From assembly GCF_007859945.1 (NCBI RefSeq), contig NZ_SJPQ01000004.1, positions 496,001-560,000 on the forward strand: a stretch of DNA of 64,000 nt, read 5' to 3'. Positions 28,239 to 36,868 of the stretch are shown here, in pieces. Position numbers and translations under genes: made by a program. Within the stretch, counting starts at the first letter, position 1. Each line of letters starts with the position of its first letter. The notes under the pieces were generated by a model, which was not told where the DNA came from, did no database searches, and saw only the letters and a program-made list of their open reading frames with translations. This stretch comes from Pseudobythopirellula maris. Its GTDB lineage: Bacteria > Planctomycetota > Planctomycetia > Pirellulales > Lacipirellulaceae.

Positions 28239-29279
28239 TCAAGCTTGCGCCTCGCTGATGACCACTTCAAAGCCGAGGTCTTCGAGCATCTGGTAATCGG
28301 ACTCGGCGGGCTGTCCCTCGGTCGTGAGGTAGTCGCCCACGAACAGCGAGTTGGCGGCGTAGAGCCCCATCGCTTGCAAGCTGCGGAGGTGGATCTCGCG
28401 GCCGCCGGCGATACGGATCTCGCTCCGCGGGCAGACCAACCTGAACATGGCCAACACTTTGAGGCACTTGCGCGGGTTGAGGTCTTCCCCGCCGCTCGCC
28501 GCAGCGCCCTCGAGCGGGGTGCCGTCGATCGGGTTGAGGAAGTTCACCGGGATCGACTCGGCCTCGAGGCCGCGCAGCTCGATCGCCATGTCCGCCACGT
28601 CCTCGGGCCGCTCGCCCATGCCGATGATTCCGCCCGAGCAGACCTCCATGCCGGCGGTGCGAACCGAGCGCAGCGTGTCGACGCGGTCTTTGTAAGTATG
28701 CGTCGTGCAGATCTTCTCGTAGTGCGACTCGCTCGTGTTGAGATTGTGGTTCACCCGATCGACGCCCGCCGCTTTGAGCCGCTCGGCCTGAGCGTCGGAG
28801 AGCAGCCCCAGGCACGCGCAGACCTTCAGGCCGTGGCGACGCTTGATCTCGGGAACGATCTCTTCGACAGCGCGCACCTCACGCTCGCTCGGGCCGCGGG
28901 CCGAGATCACGATGCAGTAAGTGCTCGCCTCGCGTTCGGCGGCCAGCCGGGCGCCATCGAGCAGCTTCTCCTTGTTCAGCAGGTTGTACTTGGGTATCTC
29001 GGCGTCCGAGATCTTCGACTGGGAGCAGTAGCCACAATCTTCCGGGCAGAGGCCGCTCTTGGCGTTCATCAGGAAGTACAGCTGCACGCGGCGGCCGAAG
29101 TGCTCGCGTCGCACGCGGTAAGCGGCGTCGAGCAGCAGGAGCAACTCGTCGTCGGGGCAAGCGAGCACCTCCATGGCTTGCGCCTGGCTCAGTGGCTCGT
29201 TTCGCAGCGACTGCTCGGCGAGCGCCTGCCAGCGGTTGGCGGCGGTCGGGGGGGCGGTCGGCGTGTCGAGGGCGGTCAT
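28239..29279 (-). CDS. bioB: Biotin synthase
   Basis: 346-residue radical-SAM enzyme inserting sulfur into dethiobiotin. The [4Fe-4S] motif is CPEDCGYCSQS (CxxxCxxC). YNLLNKEKLLDGARLA, NHNLNTSESHYEKICTTHTY, CSGGIIGMGE and GKEIHLRSLQ-type RE residues (GGREIHLRSLQAMG) match the family. It also depends on a [2Fe-2S] cluster and so on the suf system nearby. It stands alone, without other bio genes. Confidence 0.96.
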   Translation of the reverse strand: MTALDTPTAPPTAANRWQALAEQSLRNEPLSQAQAMEVLACPDDELLLLLDAAYRVRREHFGRRVQLYFLMNAKSGLCPEDCGYCSQSKISDAEIPKYNLLNKEKLLDGARLAAEREASTYCIVISARGPSEREVRAVEEIVPEIKRRHGLKVCACLGLLSDAQAERLKAAGVDRVNHNLNTSESHYEKICTTHTYKDRVDTLRSVRTAGMEVCSGGIIGMGERPEDVADMAIELRGLEAESIPVNFLNPIDGTPLEGAAASGGEDLNPRKCLKVLAMFRLVCPRSEIRIAGGREIHLRSLQAMGLYAANSLFVGDYLTTEGQPAESDYQMLEDLGFEVVISEAQA

Positions 29280-29584: not shown

Positions 29585-30151
29585 ATGACGCACCTCGTGC
29601 GAATCGGCGCCTTTGGACGCGTTGGGCGTTTCCGCTCTGCCGACGCGGTGCGCTACGCCGCAGGCGATCGGGTGATTGTGCGCACCGAGCGGGGACTCGA
29701 GACAGGGGAAGTGCTCACGGCGGACGACGGTCTCGGCCGCTCCACGCTCAGTGAAAGCGGCGCCGCCGAGCCCGATGGCGCTCTGCTGCGACGGATGACC
29801 ACGGAAGACGACCTGCTCGCCGCCCGGGTCGCCAAGAACCGCGACGCCGCCTACGCCGCCTGTGTCGAGTTGATCGAGAGCCGCGGGCTCGACGCCGTGC
29901 TAGTCGACGTGGAGCACCTGTTCGATGGCGCGTCGTTGTGGTTCCACTTCCTGGGTCCGACACCGCCCGAGGTGGAGGCGCTCACCGCCGAATTGGCCGA
30001 GGCTTACGAGTCACGGGCCCAGTTCCGACAATTCACCGAAACCCTGGAAGAAGGGTGCGGACCGGGGTGCGGCACGGCAGAGGCCACGGGCGGCGGGGGC
30101 TGCTCGACCTGCGCCGGCTGTGCGGTCGCCAGCGCCTGCTCAACCAAGTAG
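29585..30151 (+). CDS. PSP1-domain protein with cysteine-rich tail
   Basis: 188 residues. The N-terminal half has DRVIVRTERGLETGEVL, typical of PSP1 C-terminal domain proteins (the YaaT/RicT group). The middle has DVEHLFDGASLWFHFLG, like the YaaT core. The last ~34 residues hold six cysteines (GCGPGCGT ... CSTCAGCAVASAC), suggesting a metal or Fe-S site. In Bacillus, YaaT joins YmcA and YlbF in a complex that carries Fe-S clusters and modulates RNase Y. An rny gene lies at 42.4 kb here. Confidence 0.82.
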   Translation: MTHLVRIGAFGRVGRFRSADAVRYAAGDRVIVRTERGLETGEVLTADDGLGRSTLSESGAAEPDGALLRRMTTEDDLLAARVAKNRDAAYAACVELIESRGLDAVLVDVEHLFDGASLWFHFLGPTPPEVEALTAELAEAYESRAQFRQFTETLEEGCGPGCGTAEATGGGGCSTCAGCAVASACSTK

Positions 30152-30226
30152 CCGCTCCCACGCGGAAAGTTGCTAAACTAGGTGCGGACCCCCCTGCCCC
30201 GCCCCGCAATCCCACCGACTCGCCCC

Positions 30227-30589
30227 ATGGCCATCGCCTCTCACGCCAAAGACGGCATCCTCTTTGTGCGCATCGACGACGCCCGGCTCCTCGAAGAGTC
30301 ACGCATCGAGCAGCTCGAGCAAGAGCTGCTCACGTCGCTGAACAACTCGGTGGAAGAGCGTGTGGTGATCAACTTTGCCAAGGTGCAGTTCATGTCCTCC
30401 TCGATGCTCGGCAAGCTTGTGAAGGTTCACAAGAAGGCGAAGGAGTTCAAGGTCAAAGTGAAGTTCTGCTCGATCGCGCCGGACATCCAAGAGGTCTTCA
30501 AGATCACGCGGCTCGACAAGCTCTTCGACATCGAGAAGGACGAAGAGACCGCGCGTAAAGCGTTTCTCAAGCGCGGCATTTTCGGCTAG
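30227..30589 (+). CDS. STAS-domain protein (anti-anti-sigma factor-like)
   Basis: 120 residues of a single STAS fold. The loop before the second helix reads NFAKVQFMSSSMLGKLVKVH, which has serines at the position phosphorylated in SpoIIAA-type antagonists. No anti-sigma kinase gene is adjacent. ATG 30227 is chosen because conserved sequence begins there. It follows the PSP1 gene by 75 nt and converges with the FHA-EAL gene. Confidence 0.85.
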   Translation: MAIASHAKDGILFVRIDDARLLEESRIEQLEQELLTSLNNSVEERVVINFAKVQFMSSSMLGKLVKVHKKAKEFKVKVKFCSIAPDIQEVFKITRLDKLFDIEKDEETARKAFLKRGIFG

Positions 30590-30648: not shown

Positions 30649-31773
30649 TTAGTGCAAGTATGTCCCGACCGCCGCAGGACGCCCATACAGGTATCCCTGG
30701 CCGGTGACGAAGCCCATCTGCTCGCACACCTTGTGGTCGCCGGCGTGTTCGATCCCCTCGGCCAGGGGGATGATGCCAAGCTCGGTCGTCATCTGCACCA
30801 ACCGCTCGACCATCTTCTGCCGCTCCATCGACGCCAGGCGGATGTCGCGCACCAGCTTGATGTCGAACTTGAGATAGTCGGGCGGCACCTCCACCAGCTC
30901 GACCAACCGCGCCTGCCCGGCGCCGAAGTCGTCGTAGGCGAGCCCGATGTTCAGGTCGTCGAGCGCCGCACGCAGCTCGCGCATCGATTCGGTTTGGGTG
31001 GCCGTGGCCTCGTGGATCTCGAGCACCAGCGGCCGGGCGGGCGACCGCTCACGCAGCTCGCGCAGTGAGAACTTCAGCAGCTCCGGCTCGTCGATCTCGG
31101 CCGGGTGGGTGTTGGCGAACAGCAGCATGTTGCCGGGCAAGATGTCGCCGACCTTGAGACCCTCGTCGCGGAAGATGCGGCTCAGCTCCGACTCGAGCTT
31201 GAGCGCCGCCGCCACGCCGAACATCGTCTGCGGGTCCTTGAGCCCGAACAACCGGCTGCGGCCGAGGATCTCGTAGCCGATCACCGTGAGGTCTTCCATC
31301 GAAACGATCGGCTGGAAGAAAGGCACAACCGCCCGCTCGGTCATCAGCTTGTCGAACTGGATCAACGAGAGCGCCCGGTCCGAGGAGTCGTTCTCCACGG
31401 TCATGTTGTGCCGCACGGTCGCCTGCCGTGCGACGCGCAGGACGACCCGGGCGAATTGCACCAGATCGCCGGGATTGAGCGAGCATTCGCCCGTGATCCG
31501 CACGCCGTTCACAAACGTGCCGTTCGTGCTCCCCAGGTCGCGGACCAGCAGCGAGGCGTTGTCGTACTCGAATTCGGCGTGTGCGTTGGATACCGTGGGG
31601 CACGGGATCGACAGGTTCGCTTCGGGCGTCCGGCCGACGCTGTACGGCGAGTGATCGATCACGAAGTTGCGCACCACGTCATCGTCGGCCAGTTGGCCGC
31701 TGAGCTGCCAGAGCTCGGTATCGACTTGGGAGGGGGATTCGATCACGGGGGCGTCATGCGGTGACAAGTGCAA
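30649..31773 (-). CDS. FHA-EAL protein, predicted c-di-GMP phosphodiesterase
   Basis: 374 residues, soluble. The FHA domain at about 35-120 has the phosphothreonine-binding set GRT (47-49), SNAHAEF (62-68) and GSTNGTFVNG (81-90). The EAL domain at about 140-370 keeps the expected catalytic residues: EILGR, the Asn of LLFANTHP, LVLEIHE, YDDFGAG, LKFDIKLV, AEGIEHAG and GQGYLYGRP. It should hydrolyse c-di-GMP, with activity or location set by binding a phosphoprotein. It is the last gene of a three-gene minus-strand run, 41 nt after the kinase-tubulin gene. Confidence 0.93.
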   Translation of the reverse strand: MHLSPHDAPVIESPSQVDTELWQLSGQLADDDVVRNFVIDHSPYSVGRTPEANLSIPCPTVSNAHAEFEYDNASLLVRDLGSTNGTFVNGVRITGECSLNPGDLVQFARVVLRVARQATVRHNMTVENDSSDRALSLIQFDKLMTERAVVPFFQPIVSMEDLTVIGYEILGRSRLFGLKDPQTMFGVAAALKLESELSRIFRDEGLKVGDILPGNMLLFANTHPAEIDEPELLKFSLRELRERSPARPLVLEIHEATATQTESMRELRAALDDLNIGLAYDDFGAGQARLVELVEVPPDYLKFDIKLVRDIRLASMERQKMVERLVQMTTELGIIPLAEGIEHAGDHKVCEQMGFVTGQGYLYGRPAAVGTYLH

Positions 31774-31814
31774 GGCGTTGGGAGAAGCGTGGCGTGACGC
31801 TCGGCAAGCGGCGA

Positions 31815-34800
31815 TCAGACCGACTGGGTGGCGTGGGGCGTCGAGGTGGGCGGCGACGAATCAGCGGGAGCAAACGGATCGTCCTTGTCTTCAACGCGTT
31901 CGGGGATCAGCGGCGTCCAGTCGATGTCGCGGCGCGTGTGAACGCGTCGCGCGAGCTCGGTGTAGTCACGGCGTCTGCCGATCACTTCGGCGGCGAGGTG
32001 GGGAATCGACACGCCGCCGACTTCGACCAACTGGTAGTGGTCGCCGTCATTGAGAACGACTCGGTTCGGAGCGTTGGCCCCGTCGGCGTTGTCAGCGCTC
32101 TCTTCGGCGGGCGGGCCCGCGACGGCTCGCCAGTAGTGGCCGCCGTGCTCGGCCCAAGCGGGCGTTGGTAGGCCGTCGGAGGGCGATCGGCCGGCCTTTT
32201 CCAATCCTTCGGCGGACGACGCTTGGCCGCGATCGCCCAGCAGGCGCCGGGCGGCGTGGGTGATCGAGGCGCCCAGCTCTTCGGCCGAAGCCTTGGTCGC
32301 CAGTGAGCCGAGCAAACCGCCGTGCGTCGCGAGATGGTCGTTGTGAATCAACTTATCGAGCGCGTCGGCCCACCGTGCAGACTGCTGGAATTCGAACGGC
32401 TCGCCGTCGACGACCAACGCCTCGCTGGTCTCTTCGACGATCGAGGCACGCAGCTCTTCGAGGAGGCCACGCACCGAGACCAAGCCTTCGGCGAAACGCT
32501 CGACCGCTACGCCGAGCCGCCCGACTGTGTTCTCGGCGGCCTCGAAGGAGGCCTGGTCGAGCCGCAGCCGGAAAAGACGCATCATCGCGCCGTCATGAGA
32601 ATCGGTGTAAAACCGCTTCCAATGCTGGACCACCCCTTGCAGCTCATCGTCGAGTGCTTGGCGTTGGCGTGCGACATCTTTGGCGACGGCGGTCACGTGG
32701 TCGCCGATCCACTCGGTCGCAGCGTCGGCTCCCAAGAGCCGCTCCGTGGGATCGTTCGCCCGCTCGCAGATCCAGTCACGCAGCGCCTTGGTGAGACGCT
32801 CGGCGACCGGCTGCGCTAAGTCGGCGACCGGCTGGCCGTCGACGACCGTCAGCCGCCCTTCCTCATCGAGTCCCACGCCGAGCGCCTGCTCGACGGCGGC
32901 CGGGTTGGGCTTGCGGCCCAGTTTTTGGAGTGTCTGCTGACGCGAAGCGAAGTAAGCCTGCGCGTCGCCGCCGAGTCGCGCTTCGAGCGCCGAGCGGCAG
33001 GCGCCCGCCAGACCCGTGGCGTCGAGTTGATGCCGCGAGACGAACTGTGCGGCCCCGTGAACAATCTGGCTCGTGGCCGGCGTGCCGGGGTCGGCGTCGG
33101 AAGGCTCTTCGGCTCGCTCCAACCAGCGGCGCATCAGCAGGTCGATGACCGAGGCTTCCTGGCGGCGTCGTTCGTCCTGGGGCGTCGCGCGGCGGCGCTC
33201 CACAGTGAATGTTCGCAGGGTGGCGGCCCGGTCGTCGTCGCGGTCCGCCGCGCGGCAGGCGTCGAGCAGTCGCTGGGTGGGGGTGAGCGTGTCGAGCCGC
33301 AAGTAGTCGGCCACTTCGCCGGCGGCGGCGTCGAGCGCGGCGTTGTCGAGTCGCTCGCCGAGGTTCACCAGGTAGGTGTCGTCGAACGCCCGCTCGCCCG
33401 CTTCACGGGCCGGCAGCCCGCAACACTTGTCGCCCGGGAAGGCGACTCCCTCGGAGTGCAGGTGGGCGTATTCGGTTAGCCAGGAGTAGGCGTTCACCCG
33501 CGCGAGTTCGCCGCGGCGCGCCTCGCGGCCGGTCGAGTGCAGCAGCACGCCCTGCAGCTTCACCTCTTCGATGCCGAGCCGCGCCTGGATCGATCGGATC
33601 GCGTAGGCGATGTCGAGCAGCATGCCGCTTCCGGCGCCTCCGGAGATCGAGCCAACCACATAGACACGCAACGCGTCCGGCCTGAAGGCGATCCCCGTGG
33701 CTTCTTCGGCTCCGCGGAGACTCTCCTCGCTGATGGCCTCGGTCATCGCCCGACGGATCCTTTGGAACCCCTGGCGGGCGTGGTCCATCAAGGCCAAGCG
33801 TCCCAGCGGACGGATGCCGTCGGTCTGCATCGAACGCGGGATGTTGTACAGCCAGCGTCGGCTCAGCCAGCCGAGCAACAGCTCGGCCTTCTCGCGATAA
33901 TCCTGCGGCCGCCGCAACGGCAGCAGCATGGTCTCTTCGCTCGTGAGCCCGCCGCCGAGGTCGAGGTTGCGGTTGGCTGCCGCGATCGATTTCTGGTCGG
34001 TGTCGAGCAGCAGCATCGGCATGGTGGCCAGCGGGCGGTCGACGCCCAACTGCTGGGCCACGCCTTGGCGTAGGCAACGCAACACGTGTCCCGCCGAGCC
34101 GCCAACCCCCACAAATAGCGCCGGCGAAGGGGCAAAGCCCTCGGCGCTGAACTCCGCGGCGCCGGCGTCTGCCGCGGCGGCTGCCGGCTCGAGCTCGGCG
34201 ATCAAGATCGGCGCGGCGCCGCTCGTTTGCGCGTCTTCCTCTTCTTCGAAGACCTCGGTCGCGCTGTGGCGACTGGCTCTCGGCGGCGCGGCTGCCGGCG
34301 CCCCTGCGCTCGGCGCGGCGTCGAAGCCGGCGCCTTCTTCCGAGTTGACCAGGGCCTCGACGAGCTCGCGGCACGAGGCGTAGCGGTCGTTGGGGTCCTT
34401 GGCCAAGGCGCGGGCGATCGCGTAACGGTCGCCCGACTCGAGCGAGGCGAGATTCGGCTCGTGGTTCATGTGCTGCAGGGTCAGCTCCGCGGCGTTCTCG
34501 CCGGGGAACGGCACGGCGCCGGTGAGCATCTCCTGGTAAACGATCGCCAGGCTGTACTGATCGCTGTTGCGCTCGGGCGCGCCCTTGAACACTTCGGGCG
34601 CCGCGTAGACGGGCGTCATGCCCCCGACGAGCGAGGCCTGGGTTTGGCCGATGCTCTTGACCAGCCCGAAGTCGGCCACCTTCACCCGGTCCGCCAAGAG
34701 CAGCAGGTTCTCTGGCTTCACGTCGAGGTGGGCCAGCTGGTGGGCGGTGCTGAGGAAGTCGAGCGCCTCGGCGGCGTCGCTCAAGTACCGCAGCAGCTCG

Positions 34801-35162
34801 TCGCGCGGAACCCCGCGAAGCCCAGTGGCGAGGCAGGCGTCGAAGCGATCGCGCACGCTGCCGTCGGCCAGCTCCGTGACGACCAGCAGGCGGTTGTCGA
34901 TCACCTCGATCCGTTCGAGCGACAGCACGAACGGGTGGCGGACCGTTTTGACCTTCTCGAGGGCGTGCCGCTCGTGCTCGGCGCGTTTCTCGGACTGGCC
35001 GCCGTAGACAAACTTGATCGCCTTGACCAAGTCGCCCGGTGCGCTCGCGCTCCACACCTCGCCGTAGCCGCCCGAGCCGATGTGCTCGATCAGGGTGTAG
35101 CCCGGCAGGAGCTGCGTTGGTGGTTGGTGCGGGGTGCTCACTTCGCGTTCTCGCTCTTTCAC
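31815..35162 (-). CDS. Serine/threonine kinase fused to a tubulin-like (Tubulin_2) domain
   Basis: 1115 residues. Kinase domain about 22-275: glycine loop GSGGYG (29-34), K50, catalytic HLDVKPEN (145-152), DFG (164-166), APE (188-190). A Pro/Ala and acidic linker (about 280-345) leads to a GTPase-like core: FVGVGGSAGHVL near 350-361 and SISGGAGSGMLLD near 505-517, matching the tubulin/FtsZ glycine motif as in Pfam Tubulin_2. About 550 further residues are mostly helical. No membrane helix is visible. The GTG start overlaps the upstream ATPase stop by 4 nt; a second GTG seven codons later is also possible. Confidence 0.88.
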   Translation of the reverse strand: MKEREREVSTPHQPPTQLLPGYTLIEHIGSGGYGEVWSASAPGDLVKAIKFVYGGQSEKRAEHERHALEKVKTVRHPFVLSLERIEVIDNRLLVVTELADGSVRDRFDACLATGLRGVPRDELLRYLSDAAEALDFLSTAHQLAHLDVKPENLLLLADRVKVADFGLVKSIGQTQASLVGGMTPVYAAPEVFKGAPERNSDQYSLAIVYQEMLTGAVPFPGENAAELTLQHMNHEPNLASLESGDRYAIARALAKDPNDRYASCRELVEALVNSEEGAGFDAAPSAGAPAAAPPRASRHSATEVFEEEEDAQTSGAAPILIAELEPAAAAADAGAAEFSAEGFAPSPALFVGVGGSAGHVLRCLRQGVAQQLGVDRPLATMPMLLLDTDQKSIAAANRNLDLGGGLTSEETMLLPLRRPQDYREKAELLLGWLSRRWLYNIPRSMQTDGIRPLGRLALMDHARQGFQRIRRAMTEAISEESLRGAEEATGIAFRPDALRVYVVGSISGGAGSGMLLDIAYAIRSIQARLGIEEVKLQGVLLHSTGREARRGELARVNAYSWLTEYAHLHSEGVAFPGDKCCGLPAREAGERAFDDTYLVNLGERLDNAALDAAAGEVADYLRLDTLTPTQRLLDACRAADRDDDRAATLRTFTVERRRATPQDERRRQEASVIDLLMRRWLERAEEPSDADPGTPATSQIVHGAAQFVSRHQLDATGLAGACRSALEARLGGDAQAYFASRQQTLQKLGRKPNPAAVEQALGVGLDEEGRLTVVDGQPVADLAQPVAERLTKALRDWICERANDPTERLLGADAATEWIGDHVTAVAKDVARQRQALDDELQGVVQHWKRFYTDSHDGAMMRLFRLRLDQASFEAAENTVGRLGVAVERFAEGLVSVRGLLEELRASIVEETSEALVVDGEPFEFQQSARWADALDKLIHNDHLATHGGLLGSLATKASAEELGASITHAARRLLGDRGQASSAEGLEKAGRSPSDGLPTPAWAEHGGHYWRAVAGPPAEESADNADGANAPNRVVLNDGDHYQLVEVGGVSIPHLAAEVIGRRRDYTELARRVHTRRDIDWTPLIPERVEDKDDPFAPADSSPPTSTPHATQSV

Positions 35163-36868
35163 TCGTTCTCAGCCACGCACGCCGCCGCGACCGAACCCGC
35201 CGGTTCTTGCGCGGCGGGCTCCTGCTTCGTCCCCGATGGGAGTCCTGCAGTGGGCGCAGTGGTGGGCACAGTGGTTGAAACGGCTGCGTTGGACACCGGG
35301 CTCGTCGACGCCGAACGCGGCGACGCAGGATTCGAAGCCCCGGGGGTGGGGGGCGCCGACCCGGGGTTGCCTGGCTCGGGCGCGGCGGTCTTTGACGGCG
35401 ACGGTTTCGGTTGGGAAGGTTGCGGCACGGTCGGCTGCACGCCCGATGCCCTCGGCGACGGCGATGGCGATGCCGGCGTCGGTGGCGTAGGCGTTTCGGC
35501 GGCCGACGAGACTGGCGGGGCGGCGAGCGGCGCCGCCTCGGGGGTCGGCTCGGCGACGGTCGTGAAGTAGGCCCTCACGGCCCGGTCCAAGTGATCCGGT
35601 CGCAGCTCCACGGGCCCGCCCGTGTAAGCACAGTAATTGCGGATCTGCATCAACAGGTCGCGGGCCTGGCAACGCCGCAGCGGGCGGCCGACGGGCCGGT
35701 AGTGCTTTTGAACCAGGTAGTCCACGGCCTCGGCGCGGTAAGCGCATTCGACCGCCTCGCAGGCGTACTTGAACAGCGTGCGGAACTCCTCGACCGAGGG
35801 GTCTCCCACTTCCACTTTGTAGGGGATGCGACGCAGGAACGCCTCGTCCGCCAAGTCGCACGGTTCGAGGTTCGTCGAGAAGATAATCAACTGGTCGAAC
35901 GGCACCTGGATCTTCTTGCCGCTGGCGAGCGACAGGAAGTCGAAGCGGTTCTCCAGCGGGATGATCCAACGGTTGAGCAGCTCGGTCGGCTCGATCCGTT
36001 GCCGGCCGAAGTCGTCGATCAACAGGCAACCGCAGTTGCTCTTCAGCTGCAGCGACGCCTCGCTGATGTTGGTCAGCGGGTCGTGGCGGATCTCGAGGCT
36101 CTCCATCGTCAGCTCGCCGCCGACCACCACCGTGGGCCGTCGGATCTTGACCCACCGCGGGTCGCCCGTGTTGTCGGAGAGCAACGACTCGTTCTCGTGG
36201 CGGATCTCCTCGTGGAACGCCGCGTCGAACAGCTTGATGATCTGGCCGTCTTCGATGATCGCGTGCGGGATGTAGATGTGCCGGCCGAAGCACTTGGTGA
36301 TCCGCTTGGCGATCGTGGTCTTGCCGTTGCCGGGCTGGCCGTACAGGAATAGCCCCGCCCCGGAGTTCACGGCCGGGCCGAGGATCTCGAGCATCTCGGG
36401 CTCGACGCTGATGTCGCTGAACGCCTCGACGAGCTGCTCGCGGCGGGCGGCTTCGGCGCGGATCGTCTGCGCCTCGACCGACAAGATGTAATCTTCCAGC
36501 GGCACGGGGGCGGGCCCGACGTAGCTGCACGATCGCATCGCCGCCGACGCCCGGTCGGCGCCCTGATCGGTGAGCGCGAACACGTAGTCGCCAAACTGCG
36601 CTTGCCCCTGGTGGAACAACAGCTGCCGCGTACGCATGCCGTTGAGCAGCGGCTCGAGCACTCCGAACGGGATGGCGAGCCGCTTCGCGATGTCGCGTCC
36701 CGCCGCCGAGCCGATCTGCAAGAGCAGCTTGCTGACCAAACCCTCGATCAGGATCGGGCTGACGCCGGTCTCTTCGACCGACTGCGGCTCACGCGGCGTG
36801 AAGACTTCATCCGTGAACAGGTCGCTGAGGCCGAGGTCTGTTTCCAAAGGGTTTTCGTGCGAGGTCAT
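35159..36868 (-). CDS. AAA+ ATPase with winged-helix-like N-terminus and Pro/Ala/Thr-rich tail
   Basis: 569 residues. Residues ~40-115 look like a winged helix (IAKRLAIPFGVLEPLLNGMR). The AAA+ core has Walker A GQPGNGKTT (177-185), Walker B CLLIDDFG (281-288), sensor-1-like FSTN (330-333), an arginine pair at 346-347 and a sensor-2-like GRPLRRCQARDLL. From ~440 the protein is low-complexity and rich in Pro, Ala, Ser and Thr, a good substrate for Thr phosphorylation. It is the first gene of the operon and overlaps the kinase-tubulin gene by 4 nt. Confidence 0.88.
   Translation of the reverse strand: MTSHENPLETDLGLSDLFTDEVFTPREPQSVEETGVSPILIEGLVSKLLLQIGSAAGRDIAKRLAIPFGVLEPLLNGMRTRQLLFHQGQAQFGDYVFALTDQGADRASAAMRSCSYVGPAPVPLEDYILSVEAQTIRAEAARREQLVEAFSDISVEPEMLEILGPAVNSGAGLFLYGQPGNGKTTIAKRITKCFGRHIYIPHAIIEDGQIIKLFDAAFHEEIRHENESLLSDNTGDPRWVKIRRPTVVVGGELTMESLEIRHDPLTNISEASLQLKSNCGCLLIDDFGRQRIEPTELLNRWIIPLENRFDFLSLASGKKIQVPFDQLIIFSTNLEPCDLADEAFLRRIPYKVEVGDPSVEEFRTLFKYACEAVECAYRAEAVDYLVQKHYRPVGRPLRRCQARDLLMQIRNYCAYTGGPVELRPDHLDRAVRAYFTTVAEPTPEAAPLAAPPVSSAAETPTPPTPASPSPSPRASGVQPTVPQPSQPKPSPSKTAAPEPGNPGSAPPTPGASNPASPRSASTSPVSNAAVSTTVPTTAPTAGLPSGTKQEPAAQEPAGSVAAACVAENE

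Follow-up and report, generated by a model that had tools for sequence, protein, structure and literature searches.

Three adjacent minus-strand genes of the planctomycete Pseudobythopirellula maris, encoding an AAA+ ATPase, a protein kinase fused to a tubulin-like domain and a protein that joins an FHA domain to an EAL domain, constitute a real, conserved and, taken as a set of three, apparently undescribed module. The window analyzed here is a stretch of 64,000 nucleotides (nt) of that genome (NZ_SJPQ01000004.1, positions 496,001–560,000), and feature coordinates are given as window positions. In the open reading frame (ORF) list of the window, the AAA+ ATPase (gene 1, 35159–36868) is followed by the kinase–tubulin fusion (gene 2, 31815–35162) and the FHA–EAL protein (gene 3, 30649–31773). 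Genes 1 and 2 overlap by 4 nt (GTGA) and 41 nt separate the end of gene 2 from the start of gene 3, exactly as placed by the original prediction, which had been made from the sequence by itself. We are close to certain that the three genes act as one functional module, and this module may connect second-messenger signaling with a cytoskeleton-like protein.

The linkage was assessed in 43 Lacipirellulaceae genomes, 27 of which encode the kinase–tubulin fusion. A trio-type AAA+ gene, defined as a match of 548 bits or more (the best match in fusion-less genomes reached 500 bits), was present in 26 of the 27 fusion-bearing genomes and absent from all 16 others; the one fusion-bearing genome that lacks it (G032) is an assembly that is 66% complete. 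FHA–EAL adjoins the fusion in 26/27 genomes, the exception (G039) ending at a contig edge, and both the trio-type ATPase and an adjacent FHA–EAL gene were found in 25/27. The trio also recurs beyond close relatives, a point on which the original prediction had staked its proposal. A tubulin-part query gave matches in 110 of 296 Pirellulales genomes, four of them weak (E above 1e-5), and PF13809 itself turned up in 22 of 392 genomes from across the phylum Planctomycetota. Forty stretches were chosen by hand from these order and phylum matches. Six (L205 and L217–L221) contain Tubulin_2 proteins, or a match, without a kinase fusion. Because 25 of the 34 kinase–tubulin loci outside the family hold all three genes within the stretch, the trio can be taken as real rather than as chance adjacency. 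Complete trios include three loci (L202–L204) from another family of the class. Among the other nine outside loci, four have the fusion and FHA–EAL without the AAA+ gene, one has the fusion with a piece of EAL at a contig edge and one has the AAA+ gene with the tubulin part.

One motif of the tubulin part, scanned for independently across 84,980 species, yielded 135 stretches, and the best 80 of these (the 80-locus sample, which has some contigs in common with the first sample) were retained. FHA–EAL was found in 71/80, AAA+ in 55/80 and both in 52/80; seven of the nine loci without FHA–EAL end near the gene, while L267 and L300 do not. With AAA, KT and FE denoting the AAA+ gene, the kinase–tubulin fusion and FHA–EAL, the genes occur in at least four layouts, namely AAA>KT>FE (the window type), AAA..FE>KT, FE divergent from AAA>KT, and FE>AAA>KT, plus one inverted locus (L298). 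In seven genomes the AAA+ gene is not near the fusion; six of these carry a trio-type AAA+ gene elsewhere (541–641 bits; next class, 501), and the seventh (G263) has none elsewhere, its fusion standing alone. A kinase–tubulin gene also lies on a 3,260-base contig (L239) of an assembly labeled Nealsonbacteria, which is probably a stray planctomycete contig.

The product of gene 2 has 1115 amino acids (GTG start). The kinase–tubulin fusion proposed in the original prediction was borne out by Pfam, with a Pkinase match at residues 22–261 (34380–35099; E 2.9e-29) and a Tubulin_2 (PF13809) match at residues 349–601 (33360–34118; E 3e-29, 102.8 bits versus a cut-off of 27) that spans 269 of 356 profile positions. 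Judged by this above-cut-off match, gene 2 belongs to the FtsZl1/Tubulin_2 protein family. The kinase catalytic residues K47/K50, D147, K149, N152 and D164 are invariant across 56 sequences, and by alignment the domain has the residues of an active Ser/Thr protein kinase (catalytic Lys, HxD Asp and DFG Asp). Its best structural match among the matches listed was PknB (5u94; Z 29.3, root-mean-square deviation (rmsd) 2.2, 247 residues aligned). In the predicted model of gene 2 (mean predicted local distance difference test score (pLDDT) 85), residues 1–11, 279–314 and most of 1092–1115 are disordered, the second of these segments (34221–34328; pLDDT < 50) being the linker between kinase and tubulin part. 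Alternating strands and helices at residues 348–657 are followed by long helices at residues 779–989 (32196–32828), a probable coiled coil. The GGxGSG loop of the tubulin part, SGGAGSGM in the window protein, is invariant at its glycines in the alignment.

For gene 1 (569 amino acids, ATG start), matches to Pfam AAA families fell below the curated cut-offs (best E 0.0024), and its family, that of a winged-helix AAA+ ATPase, passes no Pfam or NCBIfam cut-off. The AAA+ identity read from its motifs nevertheless held: an alignment of 37 homologues shows no variation at the P-loop, Walker B and sensor-1 residues, and in the predicted model, of modest quality (mean pLDDT 69), the protein has an AAA+ core fold at about residues 148–441 (35546–36427). 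Structure searches matched this core to BchI (1g8p; Z 11.4, rmsd 3.7, 230 aligned) and ComM (8rxd_D; Z 11.2, rmsd 3.7, 231 aligned); the nearest AAA+ cores among the matches listed were those of BchI, ComM and MCM, and the protein may fall in the helix-2-insert group (BchI/ComM/MCM/MoxR-like). The N-terminal domain, at about residues 34–115 (36524–36769), resembles MarR-type winged helices (5aip_A; Z 12.2, rmsd 1.7, 76 aligned). The Thr/Pro-rich C-terminal tail that had been noticed is present (131 amino acids, 35162–35554) and unconserved: a tail longer than 29 amino acids was found in 4 of 54 homologous ORFs, the window ORF among them, and the other 50 have 29 or fewer amino acids after the core. 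The proposal that the ATPase tail is a phosphorylation target was therefore rejected as a general feature. Most Lacipirellulaceae genomes encode two further AAA+ paralogues away from tubulin genes, and 15 stretches around both paralogues showed housekeeping neighbors and no nameable operon partner. The window genome's own paralogues of the winged-helix ATPase (L128:5908–7770 and L129) likewise lie beside housekeeping genes.

Gene 3 (374 amino acids, TTG start) is the FHA–EAL fusion that had been described, with Pfam matches to FHA at residues 44–107 (31453–31644; E 9.1e-18) and to EAL at residues 145–366 (30676–31341; E 8.4e-34). The window protein has each of the eight positions that serve catalysis or metal binding in EAL enzymes (E168, N221, E252, D281, D282, K302, E339 and Q359). 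On these residues the P. maris protein is probably an active phosphodiesterase of cyclic di-GMP (c-di-GMP). The FHA domain has, by alignment, the phosphothreonine-binding residues (GR/S/H/NG), of which 6/6 were kept in 57/57 proteins of the first sample. In the 80-locus sample they were kept in 68 of 69 readable proteins, a count that excludes one protein cut off at a contig end and one unaligned; the single exception reads GRSHNK. Of the 27 family genomes that encode the fusion, 26 have an EAL match, as does one of the 16 fusion-less genomes (G027), and the trio's FHA–EAL is the sole EAL match in 9 of 18 genomes with a complete or partial window-type trio. The window genome is among these nine, with 1 EAL match, the trio's own, alongside 7 GGDEF matches. 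One of the seven lies inside an FHA–GGDEF protein of 310 amino acids with an intact GGEEF motif (contig C3, L001:934–1866, minus strand), and the genome may use phosphothreonine readers for both making and breaking c-di-GMP.

The EAL domains were next sorted by layout. An AAA+ gene adjoining the fusion, with FHA–EAL present, was seen in 46 loci of the 80-locus sample, and the EAL domain kept 8/8 positions in 42 of the 44 that were readable; L231 and L245 kept 7/8, L227 is split by a frame break and L226 is cut off. The inverted locus also kept 8/8. Where FHA–EAL sits directly upstream of the fusion, no locus kept more than 5 of the 8 positions (range 0 to 5; 24/24 loci). The first sample gave the same picture, with 8/8 positions in 15/17 window-type, 13/13 divergent and 4/4 FE>AAA>KT loci, and 0 to 5 of 8 in 23/23 loci with FE upstream of KT. 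Some positions may be misplaced in the alignment of the decayed domains; Pfam bears out the decay in two extremes, L206 (no EAL match) and L061 (35 bits), yet L259, with three positions lost, still scored 111 bits. Loci with degenerate EAL fall on several branches of a quick tree in which many deep forks are weakly supported. In three genomes, G042 (L061, L047), G041 (L062, L044) and G040 (L063, L051), a window-type module whose EAL is intact coexists with another module whose EAL is degenerate.

A divergent REC–GGDEF–CBS gene was found in 18 of the 24 loci with FHA–EAL upstream. The cluster of GGDEF proteins had 38 distinct members over all loci: 31 lack the GG[DE]EF motif, each beside a degenerate EAL, and five combine the motif with an intact EAL. 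At four FE>AAA>KT loci (L202–L204 and L214), an intact GGDEF gene lies immediately upstream of FHA–EAL (L203:2477–3637 and L214:1983–3035, plus strand), and in these loci c-di-GMP synthase and hydrolase genes share one gene row. Elsewhere, L263 has an intact GGDEF 8.3 kb from an intact EAL, a pair that is probably unrelated; L190 keeps GG[DE]EF beside a degenerate EAL and has a second, decayed GGDEF copy; and L246 has a cluster member with no FHA–EAL in view. The architectures differ, being REC–GGDEF–CBS at degenerate loci and having an N-terminal part unmatched by Pfam at FE>AAA>KT loci. The two sets of GGDEF genes may not be orthologous, and common descent of GGDEF decay with EAL decay cannot be claimed.

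The original prediction had placed the phospho-docking site in the ATPase tail or on the kinase protein itself. The docking idea is kept here with the site on the fusion, in its disordered linker and its C-terminus. Of 19 window-type linkers, 13 contain the motif T[EQ].F (shuffled mean 0.54; reached in 0 of 1,000 shuffles), and 9 of 18 C-terminal tails contain T[EQM].[FLIV] (shuffled mean 1.24; 0 of 1,000). As T[EQ].F was derived from the same linkers on which it was scored, the C-terminal tails serve as partly independent support, together with the one fresh linker of window type, which reads TQVF. In fresh linkers of other layouts, T[EQ].[FLIV] occurred in 6/18 of the FE>KT type versus 1.84 in shuffled sequences (7 of 1,000) and at chance in the divergent type (4/32 versus 3.29). 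Thr302 of the window protein (TEVF; codon at 34257–34259) is accordingly a better candidate docking site than the ATPase tail, for window-type loci only, and the C-terminus of the fusion is perhaps another. A second linker motif, [DE]T[KRQ][ST], was found in 6/11 linkers where first read (shuffled mean 0.28), fell to chance in fresh linkers and was rejected.

We propose that the kinase would phosphorylate the fusion protein itself, in the window-type group at Thr302 and perhaps at the C-terminus as well, and that the FHA domain of FHA–EAL would dock on this phosphothreonine. Docking would carry the c-di-GMP phosphodiesterase to the site of a tubulin-like assembly or switch its activity; the AAA+ ATPase, as a guess, might remodel or disassemble the assembly. 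Where EAL has decayed, the FHA phospho-reader would serve as an adaptor instead of an enzyme. That the FHA domain reads phosphothreonine made by the trio kinase is the step we favor somewhat over its negation. That this phosphothreonine lies on the fusion itself we put at a little under even chances, and that the tubulin-like protein forms a polymer or ordered assembly is similarly tentative. The mechanism as a whole, from kinase mark to localized or switched c-di-GMP breakdown, we regard as possible, narrowly short of an even bet. Its furthest extension is unlikely: a self-marking tubulin polymer with its own kinase that would recruit c-di-GMP enzymes through FHA readers for local turnover, be dismantled by the AAA+ motor and act as a pure phospho-reader scaffold where EAL and GGDEF have decayed.

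Several observations weigh against this proposal. Kinases filled the match lists of structure searches with the whole kinase–tubulin model, from which no tubulin fold match was obtained, and profile matches of the tubulin part to solved FtsZ were weak (best E 0.086). The set of EAL catalytic residues is degenerate in every locus with FHA–EAL directly upstream of the fusion; with catalysis lost in so many loci, breaking down c-di-GMP locally cannot be what the module does universally, and EAL catalysis is, on the residues kept, not essential to it. Nine HD_5 (HD-GYP type) matches in the window genome mean that FHA–EAL need not be its sole phosphodiesterase. The linker-motif shuffles ignore kinship, the case for T[EQ].F is limited to window-type loci, and [DE]T[KRQ][ST] recurred in just 1/18 fresh FE>KT and 2/32 fresh divergent linkers. 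The fusion is alone in its stretch in 3 of the 34 outside loci (L193, L195 and L196).

The same module could work without a filament, the tubulin-like domain being a non-polymerizing GTPase switch or scaffold while control of the EAL enzyme, or of some other client, by the kinase–FHA pair takes place in solution. The Tubulin_2 match is partial, the long helical insertions may affect protofilament contacts and no T7-type catalytic loop was identified in the tubulin part, all of which fit this alternative; the invariant residues of the GGxGSG loop speak for a filament instead, as does the fact that tubulin-superfamily proteins commonly polymerize. We consider the filament-free version unlikely, though it is the most serious of the alternatives. 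That three unrelated genes merely lie together by chance or history would account for the fusion-only loci (L193, L195, L196, L267 and L300), but this reading fails on the re-linking of the genes in at least four layouts, their joint presence or absence in the family and the retention of the ATPase in trans; we give it almost no credence.

A role in anti-phage defense or in another conflict system, the kinase being joined to a tubulin-type effector, would explain the patchy presence in the family (27/43 genomes), and PADLOC kinase models do match the gene 2 kinase domain (PD-T4-6, E 2e-41; mad6, E 2.3e-39). These matches are confined to that domain, FHA–EAL had no PADLOC match at E 0.01 and the ATPase matched IetA over the P-loop only. 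GTPase-centered conflict systems with tubulins have been described (PMC7159879) and share with the trio the placement of tubulin homologues in conserved multi-gene systems, but their building blocks are GTPases together with vWA and FNIII proteins. Order-wide conservation with intact motifs is unlike that of fast-evolving effectors, and FHA–EAL together with c-di-GMP enzymes suggests housekeeping signaling, leaving a conflict role improbable. Membership of a known defense system was rejected, as the trio fits no PADLOC system beyond the kinase-domain and P-loop matches. Slightly less probable still is a DNA-positioning system in which, by analogy with TubR/TubZ plasmid partition, the winged-helix ATPase would couple DNA to a tubulin-like filament. 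Its N-terminal domain is close to MarR-type DNA-binding winged helices, with plasmid centromere-binding proteins among the matches listed (4rs8, Z 11.4, rmsd 3.2, 84 aligned; 5k5q, Z 10.7); winged helices are, however, common and also mediate protein contacts, and the paralogous ATPases with the same domain sit apart from tubulin genes.

Parts of the module have known relatives. Mycobacterial PknB has FHA substrates such as GarA; the trio kinase is closest in fold to PknB and the gene 3 FHA domain resembles GarA and FhaB by sequence, but this kinase is soluble and fused to a tubulin-like domain, and the FHA domain is fused to EAL. A precedent for an FHA domain fused to a c-di-GMP enzyme is Bdellovibrio DgcB, an FHA–GGDEF protein whose switch is a phosphopeptide from its own N-terminus, according to PMC6733907; DgcB makes c-di-GMP, whereas FHA–EAL is predicted to break it down, beside a kinase–tubulin fusion. 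Makarova and Koonin noted the fusion in 2010, in a passage reporting an extra kinase domain at the N-terminus of four planctomycete proteins, and named kinases as frequent operon partners of FtsZl1 (PMC2875224); it is also covered in sections of PMC9871819 and PMC11032199. FtsZl1 systems as outlined in that 2010 passage share with the trio the Tubulin_2 domain, an extended coiled coil and a mostly helical C-terminus. The partners they usually have, vWA, OmpA and GTPase proteins, contrast with the AAA+ and FHA–EAL partners here, which that passage does not mention, and a Pfam scan of seven window ORFs gave no vWA domain. Searches of an open-access library found no description of the linked trio or of FHA–EAL proteins. 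The original claim that no system of this composition had been described thus stands for the trio within those searches and falls for the fusion.

An orphan Tubulin_2 fusion family now has two constant partners, along with a candidate phosphosite and a c-di-GMP enzyme, which makes its function testable. If the proposed mechanism is true, the phosphorylation-gated platform would link a tubulin-type cytoskeleton to c-di-GMP in bacteria that lack FtsZ; we know of no earlier link between the two. Planctomycetes are without FtsZ (stated in part of PMC11032199), and the abstract of PMC5147048 counts the way FtsZ-less members of the superphylum divide among the major mysteries. The fusion is not a general FtsZ substitute, because 16 of the 43 family genomes lack it.

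Beyond the trio, two plus-strand genes are convergent with the FHA–EAL gene, encoding a STAS-domain protein (30182–30589) and a PSP1/RicT-like protein (29585–30151), and a biotin synthase-like protein, judged by eye, is encoded on the minus strand (28239–29279).

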